Positions 7,199 through 16,564 of a stretch of DNA of 64,000 nt are shown here, in pieces; the stretch's first letter is position 1; each line of letters opens with the position of its first letter. The position numbers and the translations under genes were made by a program. The DNA lies in NCBI RefSeq assembly GCF_002286735.1, contig NZ_NRTA01000002.1, positions 124,001 through 188,000 on the forward strand, in the 5' to 3' direction. The stretch is from Leptolyngbya sp. BC1307. GTDB taxonomy: Bacteria > Cyanobacteriota > Cyanobacteriia > Phormidesmidales > Phormidesmidaceae. Below the pieces are notes generated by a model. The model searched no databases. It saw only the letters and a list, made by a program, of their open reading frames with translations, and was not told the origin of the DNA.

Positions 7199-7951
7199 AT
7201 GAAAACAATTAGGTTCAAAGGGTTAGCGGCCCTATCAGGGCTCGGCTTCCTATTAGCAGCAGTCCCTACCCAGGCAGCAACTTTTACTGAAAGCGATGAC
7301 GCGGGCGAAAGCCTGCAAACCGCAGCGGCAGTCACTTCTGCACAAAGTATGTCCCTGGAGTCAATCTCGGGCTCTCTCTCTGGAGATGCCGACCTGTTCA
7401 AGATTTTTCTGACGGGCGGGCAAACGTTCTCAGCGACGACAACCAGCAGCGAAACAGCAGATATTCCGGTTAACCAGGCGGCAGGGATTCCCATCGATGT
7501 CGTGATCGACCCCAAGATATTTTTGTTTGATGAATTAGGGAACGGGGTTTATGCCAATGACGATCTCTTTGGCTCTGTTCAGTCAACGTTGCTCTCTGGT
7601 CCGGGCGGATTCTCACCGACGGCATCGGGCATTTATTTCTTAGGCATTTCCGGGACGGGCTTGGAGGCCGTTAGCGCCAATGGCCAGATCTTTCCAAGTG
7701 AACCGTTTGACCAGATAGCTGGGCCGACCGGAGCTGGCGGAGGGTCGCCTTTGACCGGGTTTGTGGGCGATCGCACCGCTTCATTTGGCAAATACACCCT
7801 CTCTCTGACCGGTGCGCAAACTATTGCCGCCGCTCCCCCTACAGACCCTGCCGCCAGCGTTCCAGAGCCAGCAATGACGCTGGGCCTACTCATGGTAGGT
7901 GGCCTGATCATCTCGCAAGCCAAACAATCAAATAGGAATCAGATATCATGA
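7199..7951 (+). CDS. Exported protein with PEP-CTERM-like sorting tail
   Basis: A 250-residue secreted protein. Residues 1-27 form a signal peptide ending near PTQAA. The middle (FTESDDAGESLQTAAAV, SGSLSGDADLFKIFLTGGQTFSAT, then YFLGISG) looks like a pre-peptidase C-terminal or DVUA0089-type beta-sandwich. The C-terminus has VPEPAMTLGLLMVGGLIIS followed by a basic tail, the layout of a PEP-CTERM sorting signal recognised by exosortase systems. Its stop overlaps the start of the DUF4331 gene by 4 bp (ATGA), indicating translational coupling. The specific role is unknown. No exosortase gene is in this window. Confidence 0.75.
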   Translation: MKTIRFKGLAALSGLGFLLAAVPTQAATFTESDDAGESLQTAAAVTSAQSMSLESISGSLSGDADLFKIFLTGGQTFSATTTSSETADIPVNQAAGIPIDVVIDPKIFLFDELGNGVYANDDLFGSVQSTLLSGPGGFSPTASGIYFLGISGTGLEAVSANGQIFPSEPFDQIAGPTGAGGGSPLTGFVGDRTASFGKYTLSLTGAQTIAAAPPTDPAASVPEPAMTLGLLMVGGLIISQAKQSNRNQIS

Positions 7952-9177
7952 AAAACAAATTTTTCTCTTGGAATTTAAAGAAGACCCTCGGCGCAGGCGG
8001 ATTGATTCTAGCACTGGCGGCAGCAGCGGGAACGGCGACCTTCGTCAATGCCTCTGACCACGACGATGGTGAAACGGAACTCAAGGGCCGTAACCTGAAC
8101 CTGACCGACCTGTACGTGTTTCGCGAAGGCGATCAAAATCCCAGCGCATCGCCTGACAATCTGGTGTTCGTCATGAATACCAATCCGCGATCTGTGGCCA
8201 GGCAACAATACTATTTCAGCAACAAGTCTCGATACGAGTTCATGGTCTCCCGCGTTGCTGACAAAGACGCCACGCCGACTGGAATGGCCGACATGACGCT
8301 GCGGTTTGAGTTCGCAGCGCCTGACGCCAATGACCAACAGGCTTACACGCTAACCGTGCTGGAAAATGGTGACACCGTTAGCACTGTTTCAGGGCAGACC
8401 ACAGCTTTGGGCAGTGAGCCCATTGTTAATTCCGCAGATGTGGGCGGGTCTATGGTGAAGGTATTTGCGGGCCTGCGAGAAGATCCGTTTTTCTTTGACG
8501 TGGAGCAGTTTTTCCGGGTGCGAGCCGGGGCGCTGGGGATTGGTCCCGCAGTGGGCTTCCGCGATCCGGATCAAGCGGTCGATTTTGCAGCGGGCTACAA
8601 CGTCAATGCGATCGCGGTTCAAGTACCCATCGCTCTTTTAAAGGGAAGCTCCGAAGCCACCACCTTTGATGTCTGGCAAACCATCTCTATCGGCAGCGGC
8701 AAGTCATTTGAGCAGGTTGAGCGATTGGCCCGTCCCGCTGTCAACGAAGGCTTAGTGGTCACTAACGACTTCTTAAACACGCTCAATAAAGTCACGCCCG
8801 CCTTTGAAGCCGCCGCCTTAGCTGGCCAAGAGCCTGCAGCGGGTGCGGCTGGCCCCATTGTCGGTGAAATTCAGCGCACGCTGATGGCCCTTGGCAACGA
8901 CGAAGAGAGAACCGCTGCTCTGATCGGAGCCTTCCTACCGGATGTCATGCGAATTGATACGACTGCCCCCAGCGGCTACGGCAGCGCCTTGAATGCCCAG
9001 GGCAGCCCCATTGGCGGGCGGCTACTCAAGGATGATGTGGTCGATATTACGCTTTCGGTGCTGACCAATGGGGCGATTACCAGTGACAACGTTTCCTACG
9101 AAGGGACACCTGGCAACCCCGCTCAGGGCCACGAGCCGCTGATTTCGGACTTTCCGTATCTAGCGCCAGCGAACTAG
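7948..9177 (+). CDS. DUF4331 family exported protein
   Basis: A 409-residue protein with a signal peptide (cleavage near FVNAS) followed by ASDHDDGETELKGRNLNLTD and LYVFREGDQNPS, the start of the DUF4331 domain. Later motifs such as NLVFVMNTNP, EDPFFFD, NVNAIAVQVPIALL and the C-terminal GHEPLISDFPYLAPAN fit the family, whose function is unknown. It starts inside the end of the preceding PEP-CTERM-like gene and is followed by a TPR gene and a nickel/cobalt transporter gene. The acidic and His-rich N-terminus and the transporter neighbour hint at metal handling, but this is inference. Confidence 0.85.
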   Translation: MKNKFFSWNLKKTLGAGGLILALAAAAGTATFVNASDHDDGETELKGRNLNLTDLYVFREGDQNPSASPDNLVFVMNTNPRSVARQQYYFSNKSRYEFMVSRVADKDATPTGMADMTLRFEFAAPDANDQQAYTLTVLENGDTVSTVSGQTTALGSEPIVNSADVGGSMVKVFAGLREDPFFFDVEQFFRVRAGALGIGPAVGFRDPDQAVDFAAGYNVNAIAVQVPIALLKGSSEATTFDVWQTISIGSGKSFEQVERLARPAVNEGLVVTNDFLNTLNKVTPAFEAAALAGQEPAAGAAGPIVGEIQRTLMALGNDEERTAALIGAFLPDVMRIDTTAPSGYGSALNAQGSPIGGRLLKDDVVDITLSVLTNGAITSDNVSYEGTPGNPAQGHEPLISDFPYLAPAN

Positions 9178-9314
9178 GCAGCGCCAGGTCTGAAAGATTA
9201 AGGAAGTAGAGGGAGAGCTGGGTCGGGGGAGATCGTTTAGCCGCGATGCGCCTTCTCCAGCTTTCCCACCACTGACTCGATATCTCTCAATTGCCCCTAT
9301 GGAAGCCGTTCTCG

Positions 9315-10655
9315 ATGCAGCTTATTCATTTAAGAAAGCCTTTATCCAAGCGCTGGCAAGCTTCTAGTATCCTCTTACTGAGTTTGCTGACAGGAGCCCT
9401 ATTGACGGCCACACCTTTTGGAAAACGCTTAATCGCCAGGCCGCCGTCCCGATACGCATACCCCTTTTCTCTATCGTTAGAGGGTGACAATCAACAGACC
9501 GTAGAAAGCGCTATTGCGTCTTATCAAGGGCGGGTTCAGCAGCATCCGGCAGATGGCTTAGATCGCGCTGCGCTAGCGGGCGCTTACCTAAAAATGGCTC
9601 GCGTCACGGGGGCGGCTAACTGGTATCTGCTGGCAGAGCAGGAGGCGCGGCAGTCGCTGACTAACCTACCTTTTAACAATGACGGTGCCGTGATGGTGCT
9701 AGCTGAAATTGCCCAAGCCAAACACGAATTTGCTGAAGCCGTGCGTTTGGCAGAGCAGGTCTCTGGCGCAAAATCGCTGACGGTAGTGGTTACTTCAAAA
9801 CTGGCGATGGGTCAGCTAGCGGCAGCGGAAACGGCAGCAGACGAAATGGTGGATTTTGTCCCCTCTCTCGGTAGCTTAAGTCTGCGGGGGTTGACTCGGA
9901 TGGCGCGAGGAGATCATCAGGGGGCACTGCTTGATTTTCAGCAGGCGATCGCCGCTGAAGAGCCCAGTGAACAGCGCGGCTCTGCTCAGATAAGAACCTT
10001 TCTAGGCAGGCTCTACGCCGAGCAGGGAAAAAGTGAACAGGCAGAGCAGCTATACCGCGAAGCCCTGAAAATTGTGCCTGACTATCCGCTGGCGCTGCTG
10101 CATTTAGCTCAGCTAGAGACGCGCTCAGGTGATTACCGAGCGGCTAATCGCTATTACTCGCAGCTCAGTACATCTGTCGCGAGCCAGGGGGTGGCGCTCC
10201 AGGGAATTGCCCGCATTCGCTCACTCCAGGGCAAAGCTGCTGAAGCCGAGTGGCAAAGTGCTGAAACGGTGCTAAGACAGCAGCTTGACGATAACGCTTT
10301 GGGACACAGGCGCGACCTGGCGCATTTGCTGCTAGAGCGCGGTCGTGACCGGGATGTGGCTGAGGCGATCGCCCTCATGCAAACCGAAACCCAAAACCGG
10401 CGCGATGCCGAAACGCTCGACATCCTGGCCTGGGCGCTATCGCGGGCGGGCCGCTGGCAGGAAGCGCAGGCCGCCATTCGTAAGGCACTTGATCAAGGCG
10501 TCCGAAATGCAGGTATTTTATACCGAGCTGCTGAAATTGAAACCGCATTAAGCCACCCAGATCAAGCTGAGAAATATATTCGCTCAGCTCAAGCGCTCGA
10601 TCCATCCTTTGATCAGCAGACTCGCCAAAGACTAGGACTGGTTGCCCAAAAATAA
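9315..10655 (+). CDS. Exported or membrane-anchored TPR repeat protein
   Basis: A protein of about 446 residues with a basic N-terminus and a hydrophobic segment (ASSILLLSLLTGALLTATPFG) acting as signal or anchor. Several tetratricopeptide-like repeats follow from about residue 60, for example RTFLGRLYAEQGKSEQAEQL and LALLHLAQLETRSGDYRAAN. TPRs form helical scaffolds for protein contacts. I prefer ATG 9315, preceded by GGAAG at 9301-9305, over the in-frame TTG at 9291. Its stop lies 10 bp before the preferred start of the transporter gene, so the two are probably one operon. No enzymatic domain is visible. Confidence 0.8.
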   Translation: MQLIHLRKPLSKRWQASSILLLSLLTGALLTATPFGKRLIARPPSRYAYPFSLSLEGDNQQTVESAIASYQGRVQQHPADGLDRAALAGAYLKMARVTGAANWYLLAEQEARQSLTNLPFNNDGAVMVLAEIAQAKHEFAEAVRLAEQVSGAKSLTVVVTSKLAMGQLAAAETAADEMVDFVPSLGSLSLRGLTRMARGDHQGALLDFQQAIAAEEPSEQRGSAQIRTFLGRLYAEQGKSEQAEQLYREALKIVPDYPLALLHLAQLETRSGDYRAANRYYSQLSTSVASQGVALQGIARIRSLQGKAAEAEWQSAETVLRQQLDDNALGHRRDLAHLLLERGRDRDVAEAIALMQTETQNRRDAETLDILAWALSRAGRWQEAQAAIRKALDQGVRNAGILYRAAEIETALSHPDQAEKYIRSAQALDPSFDQQTRQRLGLVAQK

Positions 10656-10665
10656 CGTTGCCATC

Positions 10666-12075
10666 ATGACTCGAAAACTGCGTCGATACAGCATTCTGGG
10701 TTTACTAAGCGCCTGCTGCCTTTGGCTGGCTATGGCAGTGCCCGGTCAGGCTCACTGGGCCGATTTAGCAACCGCTGAAATTACCTTTCAATCGGCTGAG
10801 GTTTCATCTGGAGAGCAATCTGGGGGGCAGTCTGGGGCGCAAATTGCTCTGACCTACCCTACCCAGCTAACTGCCTTTGCCGATGACGACACCAGCGGGC
10901 AGCTTTCAGACGAAGAAATTAATCGCCATCGCGCTCAGCTCCAAACCTTTTTGCAAGATCGCATTCGGTTGCAAGACAGTCAGGGTCAAATGGCAGTCTT
11001 GAGCGTTAGCCCTCGCAGTGGCGTTGTTGGCGTCGTTTCTCCTAGCGGGCAGGCGGCTCCCAAGACCCACACAGGTTTGCAGTTGGACTATACCTGGCCA
11101 ACCGCCGTTCAGGGTATTGAGATTGACTACAACTTATTTGTTCCAGATGCTCCTAAAGCTACCTGCTTAGCGACGATTTCTCAGGCAGGAGAGTTTACCA
11201 GCCACGTCTTTACCCCCCAAAAGACGACGCTGGTCCTAACGCCAGCGGGGACTGTGTTGAGTAAAGGCAAATGGGCACTGACGCTGATCGGGGTTTTTGC
11301 TTGGGGGGCGGCGCATTCAATGTCGCCCGGTCACGGCAAAACCCTGGTCGGAGCCTATTTAGTCGGCGAACGAGCTACGCCGCGCCACGCTATTTTCTTG
11401 GCAATGGTAACGACGGTGACACATACACTAGGCGTCTTTGCTTTGGGGTTGGTGACGCTGTTTGCCGCTCGCTACATTTTGCCAGAACAGCTTTATCCCT
11501 GGCTGAGTCTGCTATCGGGAACGATGGTGATGGCGATTGGGGTGAATCTGCTCTGGCAGCGGTGGCGGCGATATGTTTCTACAAAGGGCAGTAGCCATGA
11601 GGCTCACGGTCATACTCATACCCCTCATGCTCATACCCCTCATCATCACGGCCATACCCATCATCACGATCACGACCACGGTCATAGCGAGCATTCTCAT
11701 AGCGAGCACACTCACGGTGAACCAGCTCACTCCCACCTGCCTGCTGAAAATGGTGAGCCTGTTACCTGGCGAAGTTTGCTGTTTTTAGGGCTGTCGGCGG
11801 GTTTAGTGCCCTGTCCGGCGGCGCTAGTGCTGCTGTTGGGAGCGATCGCCCTCGGCAACCCAACATCTGGCCTGATTCTAGTATTCGTCTTTAGCCTAGG
11901 ACTATCGCTCGTGCTGACCGTGCTGGGGCTGTTGTTGGTCTATGCCAAGCAGCTATTTAAGTATTTGCCGACAACTCAGCTATCTTGGACGCGGTGGTTG
12001 CCGGTAGCTAGTGCCTCTGGGATCGTAGTTATCGGCATCGCGATTTCTACCCGGTCGCTGCTGCAAGTTTTCTAA
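10666..12075 (+). CDS. Nickel/cobalt transporter with His-rich loop (RcnA/NicO type)
   Basis: A membrane protein of about 469 residues. A signal peptide ends near GQAHWADLA; a periplasmic domain (to about residue 190) precedes the transporter core. The core begins with HSMSPGHGKTLVGAYLVGE, a motif of RcnA/NicO-type transporters. A loop at about residues 308-360 is packed with His and acidic residues (HGHTHTPHAHTPHHHGHTHH and more), typical of Ni/Co binding. A second hydrophobic half has GLVPCPAALVLLLGAIA. ATG 10666 is preferred over the in-frame TTG at 10642, which would overlap the TPR gene. Whether it imports or exports metal is not decided by sequence. Confidence 0.85.
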   Translation: MTRKLRRYSILGLLSACCLWLAMAVPGQAHWADLATAEITFQSAEVSSGEQSGGQSGAQIALTYPTQLTAFADDDTSGQLSDEEINRHRAQLQTFLQDRIRLQDSQGQMAVLSVSPRSGVVGVVSPSGQAAPKTHTGLQLDYTWPTAVQGIEIDYNLFVPDAPKATCLATISQAGEFTSHVFTPQKTTLVLTPAGTVLSKGKWALTLIGVFAWGAAHSMSPGHGKTLVGAYLVGERATPRHAIFLAMVTTVTHTLGVFALGLVTLFAARYILPEQLYPWLSLLSGTMVMAIGVNLLWQRWRRYVSTKGSSHEAHGHTHTPHAHTPHHHGHTHHHDHDHGHSEHSHSEHTHGEPAHSHLPAENGEPVTWRSLLFLGLSAGLVPCPAALVLLLGAIALGNPTSGLILVFVFSLGLSLVLTVLGLLLVYAKQLFKYLPTTQLSWTRWLPVASASGIVVIGIAISTRSLLQVF

Positions 12076-14290: not shown

Positions 14291-16564
14291 ATGACAACTA
14301 CACCGCGCGAGCGGGAAGCCACCAAAGCTAAGGTTGTGGTTGATAAAAACCCCACACCCACTTCATTTGAGAAGTGGGCCAAGCCAGGTCACTTTGACCG
14401 GACATTGGCTCGGGGACCTAAAACTACCACCTGGATTTGGAACCTTCACGCTGACGCTCACGACTTCGACAGTCATACCAGTGACCTAGAAGACATATCT
14501 CGAAAAATCTTTAGCGCTCACTTTGGTCATCTGGCCGTTGTGTTCATCTGGCTGAGCGGCATGTATTTCCACGGCGCTCGCTTTTCCAACTACGAAGGTT
14601 GGATGGCTAATCCGCTGGCTGTTAAGCCCAGTGCTCAGGTCGTTTGGCCGATTGTCGGTCAAGAGATCTTGAATGCTGATGTCGGCGGCGGCTTCCACGG
14701 CATTCAGATCACCTCGGGTCTGTTCCAGCTGTGGCGTGCTTCCGGCATTACCAACACCACTCAGCTCTATGCGACTGCCATTGGCGGTTTGGTAATGGCT
14801 GGTCTGATGTTGTTTGCTGGCTGGTTTCACTACCACAAGCGCGCTCCTAAGCTGGAGTGGTTCCAAAACGTAGAGTCCATGCTGAACCACCACCTAGCAG
14901 GTTTGCTGGGTCTGGGTTCTCTATCTTGGGCCGGTCACCAAATCCATGTGGCTGCCCCGATTAACAAGCTGCTGGACGCAGGCGTTTCGCCTAAAGACAT
15001 TCCGCTGCCGCATGAGTTCTTGTTTGACAAGGCTTTCATGGCAGAGCTATATCCCGGTTTCGCGCAGGGTCTCAAGCCCTTCTTTACGCTAAATTGGGCA
15101 GCTTATTCGGATTTTCTCACCTTTAATGGGGGATTGAATCCGGTAACTGGCGGTCTTTGGCTGACTGATTCGGCGCACCATCATTTGGCGATCGCCGTCC
15201 TCTTCCTGGTTGCTGGTCACATGTACCGCACCAACTGGGGCATTGGTCACAACATCAAGCAAATTTTGGATAACCACAAAGGCGATCCGCTTTTGTTTGG
15301 AGGTGAAGGTCACGTCGGCTTGTACGACTTTTTAACGACCTCCTGGCACGCTCAGCTCGCCATTAACCTGGCGCTGCTCGGTTCGCTCACCATCATCGTG
15401 GCTCAGCATATGTATGCGATGCCGCCCTATCCTTACCTGGCGACTGACTACGCGACTCAAGTGTCGCTGTTTACTCACCACATGTGGATCGGTGGATTCA
15501 TCGTCGTCGGTGCGGGGGCACACGGAGCTATTGCTCTGATTCGCGACTACGACCCGGCTAAGCATGTCAACAACGTGCTCGACCGGACGCTCAGAGTTCG
15601 CGACGCCATCATCTCTCACCTCAACTGGGTTTGTATTTTCCTTGGCTTCCACAGCTTTGGTCTCTACATTCACAACGACACCATGCAGGCATTGGGCCGC
15701 CCCCAGGACATGTTCTCGGATACGGCAATTCAACTGCAGCCTGTCTTTGCGCAGTGGATTCAGAGCCTGCACACCGCAGCGCCTGCCCTCAACGGCACCG
15801 CGCCTAACGCGCTAGCACCAGTTAGCTATGCCTTTGGCGGCGGTGTGGTCGCAGTCGGTGGCAAGGTTGCCATGATGCCGATTCAGCTCGGCACCGCTGA
15901 CTTCATGGTTCACCACATCCATGCGTTCACTATTCACGTGACCGTGCTCATCCTGCTAAAGGGTGTGCTGTATGCCCGGAACTCTCGTCTTATTCCTGAT
16001 AAGGCTGCACTCGGTTTCCGATTCCCTTGCGACGGCCCCGGTCGTGGCGGCACTTGCCAGGTTTCGGCTTGGGATCATGTGTTCTTGGGTCTGTTCTGGA
16101 TGTACAACTCGATTTCGATTGTGATTTTCCACTTCAGTTGGAAGATGCAGTCAGATGTATGGGGCACAGTGTCCGACAACGGCACGGTCTCACATATTAC
16201 CGGCGGTAACTTTGCCGCAAGTGCAATCACCATCAACGGTTGGCTGCGCGACTTCCTGTGGGCGCAAGCTTCTCAGGTCATCAACACCTACGGTTCGGCA
16301 CTGTCGGCTTACGGTCTGATGTTCTTGGGTGCCCACTTCATCTGGGCCTTCAGCCTCATGTTCCTCTTTAGTGGTCGCGGCTACTGGCAGGAATTGATTG
16401 AGTCTATTGTGTGGGCTCACAACAAGTTGAAAGTGGCTCCGGCTATCCAGCCTCGCGCACTGAGCATTACTCAGGGCCGAGCTGTGGGCGTGGCTCACTA
16501 CCTCTTAGGAGGGATCGCTACCACATGGGCATTCTTCCTGGCTCGAATGATAACAGTAGGTTAA
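14291..16564 (+). CDS. psaA: Photosystem I P700 chlorophyll a apoprotein A1
   Basis: One of two core polypeptides of photosystem I. It binds P700, most antenna chlorophylls, and half of the Fx iron-sulfur cluster in the thylakoid membrane. The length of 757 residues is normal. The Fx loop [12 protein letters not shown] has Cys 580 and Cys 589. Many conserved His-containing helices are visible, for example [19 protein letters not shown] and [20 protein letters not shown], and the C-terminus ends [12 protein letters not shown]. The start is fixed by a strong AGAGGAG. It is followed after 25 bp by psaB with no terminator between, so they form one operon. Nothing in the sequence suggests a far-red paralogue. 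Confidence 0.99.

Follow-up and report, generated by a model that had tools for sequence, protein, structure and literature searches.

A conserved DUF4331-TPR-permease gene group in Leptolyngbya sp. BC1307, a candidate metal-capture system of the bacterial envelope

The locus and its four genes

We analyzed a 64,000-nucleotide stretch of the genome of Leptolyngbya sp. BC1307 (contig NZ_NRTA01000002.1, positions 124,001 to 188,000; here, the window), focusing on four genes that encode a PEP-CTERM protein, a protein of the uncharacterized family DUF4331, a tetratricopeptide repeat (TPR) protein, and a NicO-type permease (Table 1). The arrangement given in the original prediction is present: all genes lie on the plus strand in this order, the first two overlap by ATGA, and the last two are 10 bp apart (counted from the ATG at 10666). 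The gap between the DUF4331 and TPR genes is 140 bp and contains no terminator-like site on the plus strand; in the scan as a whole, promoter- and terminator-like sites showed no excess over shuffled sequence. All four genes may share a single transcript, and the last three form a core that recurs much more often than chance would allow. The group seems to represent one branch of an operon found widely in bacteria, whose permease carries a predicted metal-capturing domain and which probably takes up copper or nickel at the surface of the cell.

The DUF4331 protein matches PF14224 (E = 3.5e-66; 224.6 bits) and the permease matches NicO PF03824 (E = 1.5e-18; 67.6 bits), both passing the curated cutoffs (27 and 27.7, respectively). 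The list of open reading frames (ORFs) also offers TTG starts for the TPR gene (9291) and the permease gene (10642). The TPR protein begins with a hydrophobic segment, judged by eye to be an anchor, and is a probable envelope scaffold. The PEP-CTERM protein shows both marks of its class, a C-terminal tail barely above the TIGR02595 cutoff (16.1 bits against 16) and an exosortase encoded in the same genome (TIGR02602, E = 2.9e-59, above the cutoff).

Table 1. Features of the four-gene locus (positions in the window)
Feature	Position	Strand	Remarks or basis
PEP-CTERM protein gene	7199..7951	+	250 amino acids; domain weakly PPC/DVUA0089-like in homologues
DUF4331 gene (PF14224)	7948..9177	+	409 amino acids; predicted exported; profile match
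Predicted signal peptide of DUF4331, ending ...FVNA	7948..8052	+	Sequence
Predicted mature N terminus of DUF4331, S-D-H-D-D-G, with S-x-H resembling an amino-terminal Cu(II)- and Ni(II)-binding (ATCUN) motif	8053..8070	+	Sequence; predicted local distance difference test (pLDDT) score <50
TPR protein gene, ATG start	9318..10655	+	Several TPR models above cutoff
Permease gene, anglerase-like domain fused to NicO	10666..12075	+	Profile match; predicted fold
Predicted signal peptide of permease, ending ...PGQA	10666..10752	+	Sequence
Extracytoplasmic Ang-1/ZrgA-like domain, His1 first	10753..11250	+	Model and conservation
EF-hand-like loop D44-E55 within the anglerase-like domain, DDDTSGQLSDEE	10882..10917	+	Sequence; weak EF-hand matches; conservation
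His-rich loop separating the two halves of the NicO membrane domain	11592..11740	+	Sequence

Conservation of the neighborhood and exchange of its parts

To compare DUF4331 neighborhoods, we searched a collection of genomes with a single degenerate peptide motif, which found 472 relatives, and kept the best 80 (L045 to L124), a set skewed towards the kin of the window. The TPR gene lies immediately 3' of the DUF4331 gene in 78 of the 80 loci; only 125 and 242 bp of contig remain in the other two (L061 and L066). A permease gene follows in 65 loci, being of the NicO type in 40 and of the HupE/UreJ_2 type in 25. In 13 loci with a TPR gene the permease was not found, and seven of these have less than 2.5 kb of contig beyond DUF4331. 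Among the 80 contigs, the trio was also present in Trueperaceae, Calidithermus chliarophilus, two Armatimonadetes, and two metagenome-assembled genomes (MAGs) labeled Bacillota. The lack of a conserved neighborhood was half of what had been named as refuting the original prediction; the neighborhood is conserved in several phyla. DUF4331 itself is patchily distributed: 18 of 58 relatives carry it, as do 26 of 386 genomes sampled across the phylum.

An extracytoplasmic function (ECF) sigma factor gene and/or a ChrR-like gene stands near the trio in 31 of the 80 loci (both in 25), and a relative of the PEP-CTERM protein in 23 (20 of them strong); these counts are lower bounds because flanks are short in some loci. 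Checking example neighbor proteins against Pfam identified HupE_UreJ_2, sigma-70 regions, a ChrR cupin-like domain, DUF4394, and DUF4114. Five flank families recur, each of them in 5 to 11 loci. Downstream of the permease, 11 of the 80 loci (e.g., L046:10221-10553) encode a small Cys-containing family that appears to be secreted, and none was seen in the window. In a distant relative (L021:4694-10668), the trio is preceded by what appears by eye to be an M56/BlaR1-like repeat protein, a different kind of regulator. Locus L058, from a MAG named Tatlockia (a gammaproteobacterial title), groups with cyanobacteria, and the record name is probably wrong; DUF4331 matches via the Tatlockia MAG G430 fell at places already found in cyanobacterial genomes.

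A tblastn search with a distant DUF4331 protein returned 32 plasmid records, of which 17 loci were examined (three were unannotated and read as ORFs). The complete trio was present in 11 of the 17, spanning three phyla: Pseudomonadota (Marinobacter, Lichenicola, two Pseudoalteromonas, Variovorax, Comamonadaceae, and Paraburkholderia, covering Alpha-, Beta-, and Gammaproteobacteria), Actinomycetota (two Streptomyces and Embleya), and Cyanobacteriota (one Nostoc). The TPR match was weak in one Pseudoalteromonas plasmid (L164; E = 2e-5), a small gene separates DUF4331 from TPR in several proteobacterial loci, and the order in Paraburkholderia is TPR-HupE-DUF4331. Three plasmid loci (Miltoncostaea and two Adhaeribacter plasmids) carry DUF4331 and TPR without the permease. 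On the Rhodobacterales plasmids L154, L155, and L160, the DUF4331 gene has an A24 prepilin peptidase gene on one side and genes for type II secretion on the other. The Streptomyces plasmids L159 (11051-12871 onward) and L161 carry a second DUF4331 gene in addition to the trio, in L159 beside a sortase gene; the copies that are complete end in a hydrophobic segment and a basic tail. The Nostoc plasmid encodes a PEP-CTERM protein directly 3' of the trio (L158:9967-10626) that aligns with the PEP-CTERM protein of the window only around the C-terminal tail.

To follow the exchange of parts, we built a quick tree of the 80 DUF4331 proteins (Shimodaira-Hasegawa-like approximate likelihood ratio support only) and a second tree from the anglerase-like domain of the permease. 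Permease type requires six changes on the first tree (at least four of them forced by starred branches) and five on the second (at least two forced), which has some long branches. Regulator genes require 13 changes on the DUF4331 tree, and PEP-CTERM relatives two, once for the clade that holds the window and once for the weak multidomain proteins of L078 and L090 (the L096 relative, split by a frame change, was excluded from the count). Permease type compared with PEP-CTERM or regulator genes gave at most four supported independent pairs on the tree and no significance. The operon thus looks portable: the type of permease is swapped, whereas the putative metal-capturing domain and the partner genes are retained.

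The PEP-CTERM protein, proposed as part of the system, is better described from its distribution as a clade-specific, probably accessory component. Its homologues are nearly confined to one clade, with weak multidomain relatives in three loci outside it. Among the 20 clear homologues, 11 have a PEP-CTERM tail by eye (three were profiled, all above the cutoff) and nine do not; of two tailless homologues profiled, one has DUF4394 and the other DUF4114.

Predicted N termini of the permease and DUF4331

We modeled the first 166 mature residues of the window permease with AlphaFold2, using an alignment with 48 relatives of both permease types (pLDDT, 87.2; predicted template modeling score, 0.83). 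Foldseek matched the model to ZrgA and PA4063 with a probability of up to 1.00 (E = 3e-4 to 1e-3). With VIA-align, residues 1 to 166 of the model fell on residues 1 to 158 of 9GCE (Ang-1) at Z = 9.6 (root mean square deviation [rmsd], 3.8; 133 aligned residues), and Z was 9.7 for ZrgA (8F1B; rmsd, 3.5; 116 aligned) and 8.6 to 8.9 for PA4063 entries; the best fold outside these families reached 5.8. The first aligned pair with 8F1B joins model residue 1 to ZrgA residue 35, a ligand of zinc site 1, which consists of His35, His37, and Glu66 (PMC9820375). The predicted domain thus resembles the periplasmic zinc proteins ZrgA and PA4063 (8F1B and 7AMX) in fold and in the placement of residue 1. By contrast, ZrgA is not fused to a permease but works as the binding protein for an ABC importer, and identity is 13 to 15%.

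The closest architecture is that of the anglerases Ang-1 and Ang-2, known since 2025 as parts of HupE/UreJ-2 permeases (PMC12537917). In 9GCE, the Ang-1 domain of such a permease, copper is held by His1 and Asn41; the reported Kd is 74 nM for copper and 220 nM for nickel, and the authors propose that the domain captures metal and feeds the permease (PMC12537917). The window protein likewise has a predicted signal peptide, a His residue predicted to come first after it, and then a metal permease, and its model shows the 9GCE beta-sandwich with three helices after strand 2. Unlike Ang-1 and Ang-2, its membrane domain is NicO and its operon includes DUF4331 and TPR genes; DUF4331, TPR, tetratricopeptide, and NicO have no occurrences in the main text of PMC12537917. 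Because the membrane domain is not HupE/UreJ-2, we call the domain anglerase-like and do not class it as Ang-1. The anglerase idea would in this way be widened from HupE/UreJ-2 to NicO permeases.

All 65 permeases of the 80 loci have H-W-x-D after a hydrophobic leader or predicted signal peptide, with cleavage predicted by eye. The preceding residue is Ala in 60, Ser in 2, and Thr in 1 of 63 pattern-matched permeases, and the remaining two read S|HWSD. For a conservation count, 64 domains were chosen by the pattern HW[AGDN]D, so the invariance of H1, W2, and D4 among them reflects that selection. Conserved without selection were D44, Y113, and Y126 (64/64), H106 and E55 (63/64), C138 (62/64), and H59 (59/64). 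By eye, all 11 plasmid permeases have A|H at the end of the leader, with other starts (HKxSD, HSASS, HQLST, and HPLGN). His1 is a mono-histidine-brace candidate. Searching the anglerase-like profile against PDB sequences gave nonsignificant matches only, mostly to EF-hand proteins (best E = 0.13), and one plasmid relative of the domain had no match up to E = 1.

The predicted mature DUF4331 protein has Ser1 and His3 in all 11 aligned proteins, the most distant of which is 24% identical to that of the window. Among 129 distinct sequences with a length of 280 residues or more, 127 have an S/A-x-H start, although the pattern used for this count required that motif close to where DUF4331 begins; the N terminus is missing from the remaining two (L096 and L132). 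A hydrophobic leader precedes the motif in 123 copies and ends in Ala (111), Ser (9), or Thr (3). Four leaderless copies read M-S-x-H, with Met before the motif in each; the ORF starts there in two, and an upstream in-frame start exists in the other two. As a background, 103 of 817 unrelated flanking ORFs had a blindly predicted signal peptide, and His was at +3 in one and at +1 in three of these. Once the leader or Met is removed, the first residues of DUF4331 appear to be S-x-H, which resembles an ATCUN site for Cu(II) or Ni(II) (X-X-His) and sits on a disordered tail; the likeness to ATCUN proteins is one of motif and not a claim of homology. This gives an uncharacterized family a specific, testable biochemical prediction. 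The leaderless cyanobacterial copies L036 and L038 start with MSHHLDSP and adjoin genes that appear by eye to encode a small membrane-like protein and an NAD-epimerase-like protein.

In a model of mature DUF4331 (mean pLDDT, 91.7), residues 1 to 12 scored below 50. The 55 aligned sequences were trimmed to begin at S-x-H, so the identity of residues 1 and 3 among them is partly selected; D2, D4, D5, and G6 are also identical and were not part of the selection. The conserved yet disordered tail fits a metal-binding terminus but does not prove one. Alternatively, the S-x-H start could serve structure or catalysis (as an N-terminal serine might) rather than bind metal, and DUF4331 could be a surface protein linked to the other genes by the shared operon alone. 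The occurrence of DUF4331 without the permease and its conserved Asp residues elsewhere would suit such a role, which nevertheless seems somewhat unlikely given the low-confidence first 12 residues and a Paraburkholderia copy starting A-S-H, which keeps His at +3 with Ala first. Foldseek gave no fold relative of DUF4331 at E <= 0.001 (best probability, 0.13 among the 50 matches listed), which does not establish a new fold. Antibody chains, the best VIA matches (Z = 6.3), were rejected as falling under the level that exceeds a common arrangement. The DUF4331 profile also matched designed helical-repeat PDB chains (best E = 1.7e-11; mature residues 220 to 310), probably because of helix composition.

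Metal identity and direction of transport

We propose, with moderate confidence, that the DUF4331-TPR-permease core is an envelope capture-and-uptake system for a divalent transition metal, most likely copper or nickel. Metal would be captured outside the inner membrane and passed to the inner-membrane permease for uptake. The permease would be modular, consisting of a signal peptide, an Ang-1/ZrgA-like domain with His1, and then NicO (as in the window) or HupE/UreJ_2. DUF4331 would be its exported partner. Its S-x-H, lying on a flexible tail, could chelate Cu(II) or Ni(II) in the manner of an ATCUN motif, and the protein may supply the permease with metal or act as a buffer for it; the TPR protein may act as a membrane-anchored scaffold joining the two. 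In the clade of the window, a PEP-CTERM or otherwise exported protein would have been added. A more specific version is tentative, and we would give it somewhat less than an even chance: DUF4331 proteins as ATCUN copper/nickel metallochaperones that hand metal to the His1 anglerase domain on swappable NicO or HupE permeases, with TPR as the scaffold, forming a two-step N-terminal relay and an undescribed class of acquisition system.

Several observations weigh against the capture-and-uptake proposal. TM-scores of the Foldseek matches to ZrgA and PA4063 were 0.4 to 0.5, and 9GCE was absent among the 50 matches listed. Since D44-E55 reads as an EF-hand-like loop, D44 and E55 may merely hold calcium rather than copper or nickel. 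Six of the 80 loci with TPR and downstream room had no permease that we could find (L056, L078, L080, L084, L096, and L107). Three Rhodobacterales loci, where DUF4331 adjoins genes for type II secretion, have neither TPR nor permease, and the four leaderless copies also lie outside the trio; DUF4331 can thus occur independently of the permease. A crude blind cleavage rule puts the cut exactly before S-x-H in just 47 of 123 copies. Thr before a cleavage site is disfavored by signal peptidase, and the three copies with Thr there may have no free S-x-H. The NicO family includes the exporter RcnA, so transport could be outward.

Metal efflux or detoxification would have the NicO permease export nickel/cobalt (as RcnA does) or copper, with the extracytoplasmic domains buffering the expelled metal. 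In favor of this reading, the permease matches the RcnA-family model and resembles RcnA/NicO nickel-cobalt transporters (PF03824 and NF007454) in its membrane domain and His-rich loop, and the ECF sigma and ChrR-like genes near the trio would also suit efflux. As a candidate RcnA, the window permease was rejected: it scored 131.2 bits with the NCBIfam nickel/cobalt efflux model (NF007454), below the cutoff of 195, and the model spans only residues 196 to 462 of 469, with no counterpart of the His1 domain. The permease slot alternates between NicO and HupE/UreJ_2, and the same domain occurs on HupE/UreJ_2 proteins, which the main text of PMC12537917 describes as nickel permeases; the domain also resembles ZrgA, which serves zinc import (PMC9820375). 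We therefore consider efflux unlikely. Given the role of ZrgA in import and the description of HupE as a permease for nickel, uptake appears to us considerably more probable than export.

Envelope metal handling as originally predicted is supported by the conserved neighborhood and by the extracytoplasmic domain with its copper/nickel-binding (9GCE) and zinc-binding (8F1B) structural relatives; the four-gene unit holds only in part, its PEP-CTERM member falling outside the core. Nickel/cobalt as the metal is not fixed, as Ang-1 binds copper more tightly than nickel (PMC12537917, main text) and DUF4331 is not linked to NiFe hydrogenase. Among the 58 relatives, NiFe hydrogenase was present in 5 of 18 genomes with DUF4331 versus 21 of 40 without (no enrichment), and urease in 17 of 18 versus 33 of 40. 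Urease and a plastocyanin-family protein are encoded in the window genome, in which no NiFe hydrogenase match was found. The names HupE and UreJ and the urease of the window genome might suggest that the operon provides nickel to urease or to NiFe hydrogenase. This is quite improbable: hydrogenase is not enriched alongside DUF4331 and has no match in the window genome, and urease is nearly universal and does not discriminate. Co-occurrence of urease, hydrogenase, and the plastocyanin family did not separate copper from nickel.

In the literature searched, which excluded most subscription papers, we found no mention of DUF4331 or PF14224, the word anglerase only in PMC12537917, and no earlier account of the NicO fusion, the DUF4331-TPR operon, or the S-x-H start. 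Elsewhere in the window, the ORF starting at 14291 is photosystem I-like and is, we take it by eye, PsaA. The same genome encodes a second, distinct NicO protein (contig C44, 8944-9702), and the start of a GTPase-like ORF just downstream resembles by eye what are presumably COG0523 metal chaperones.

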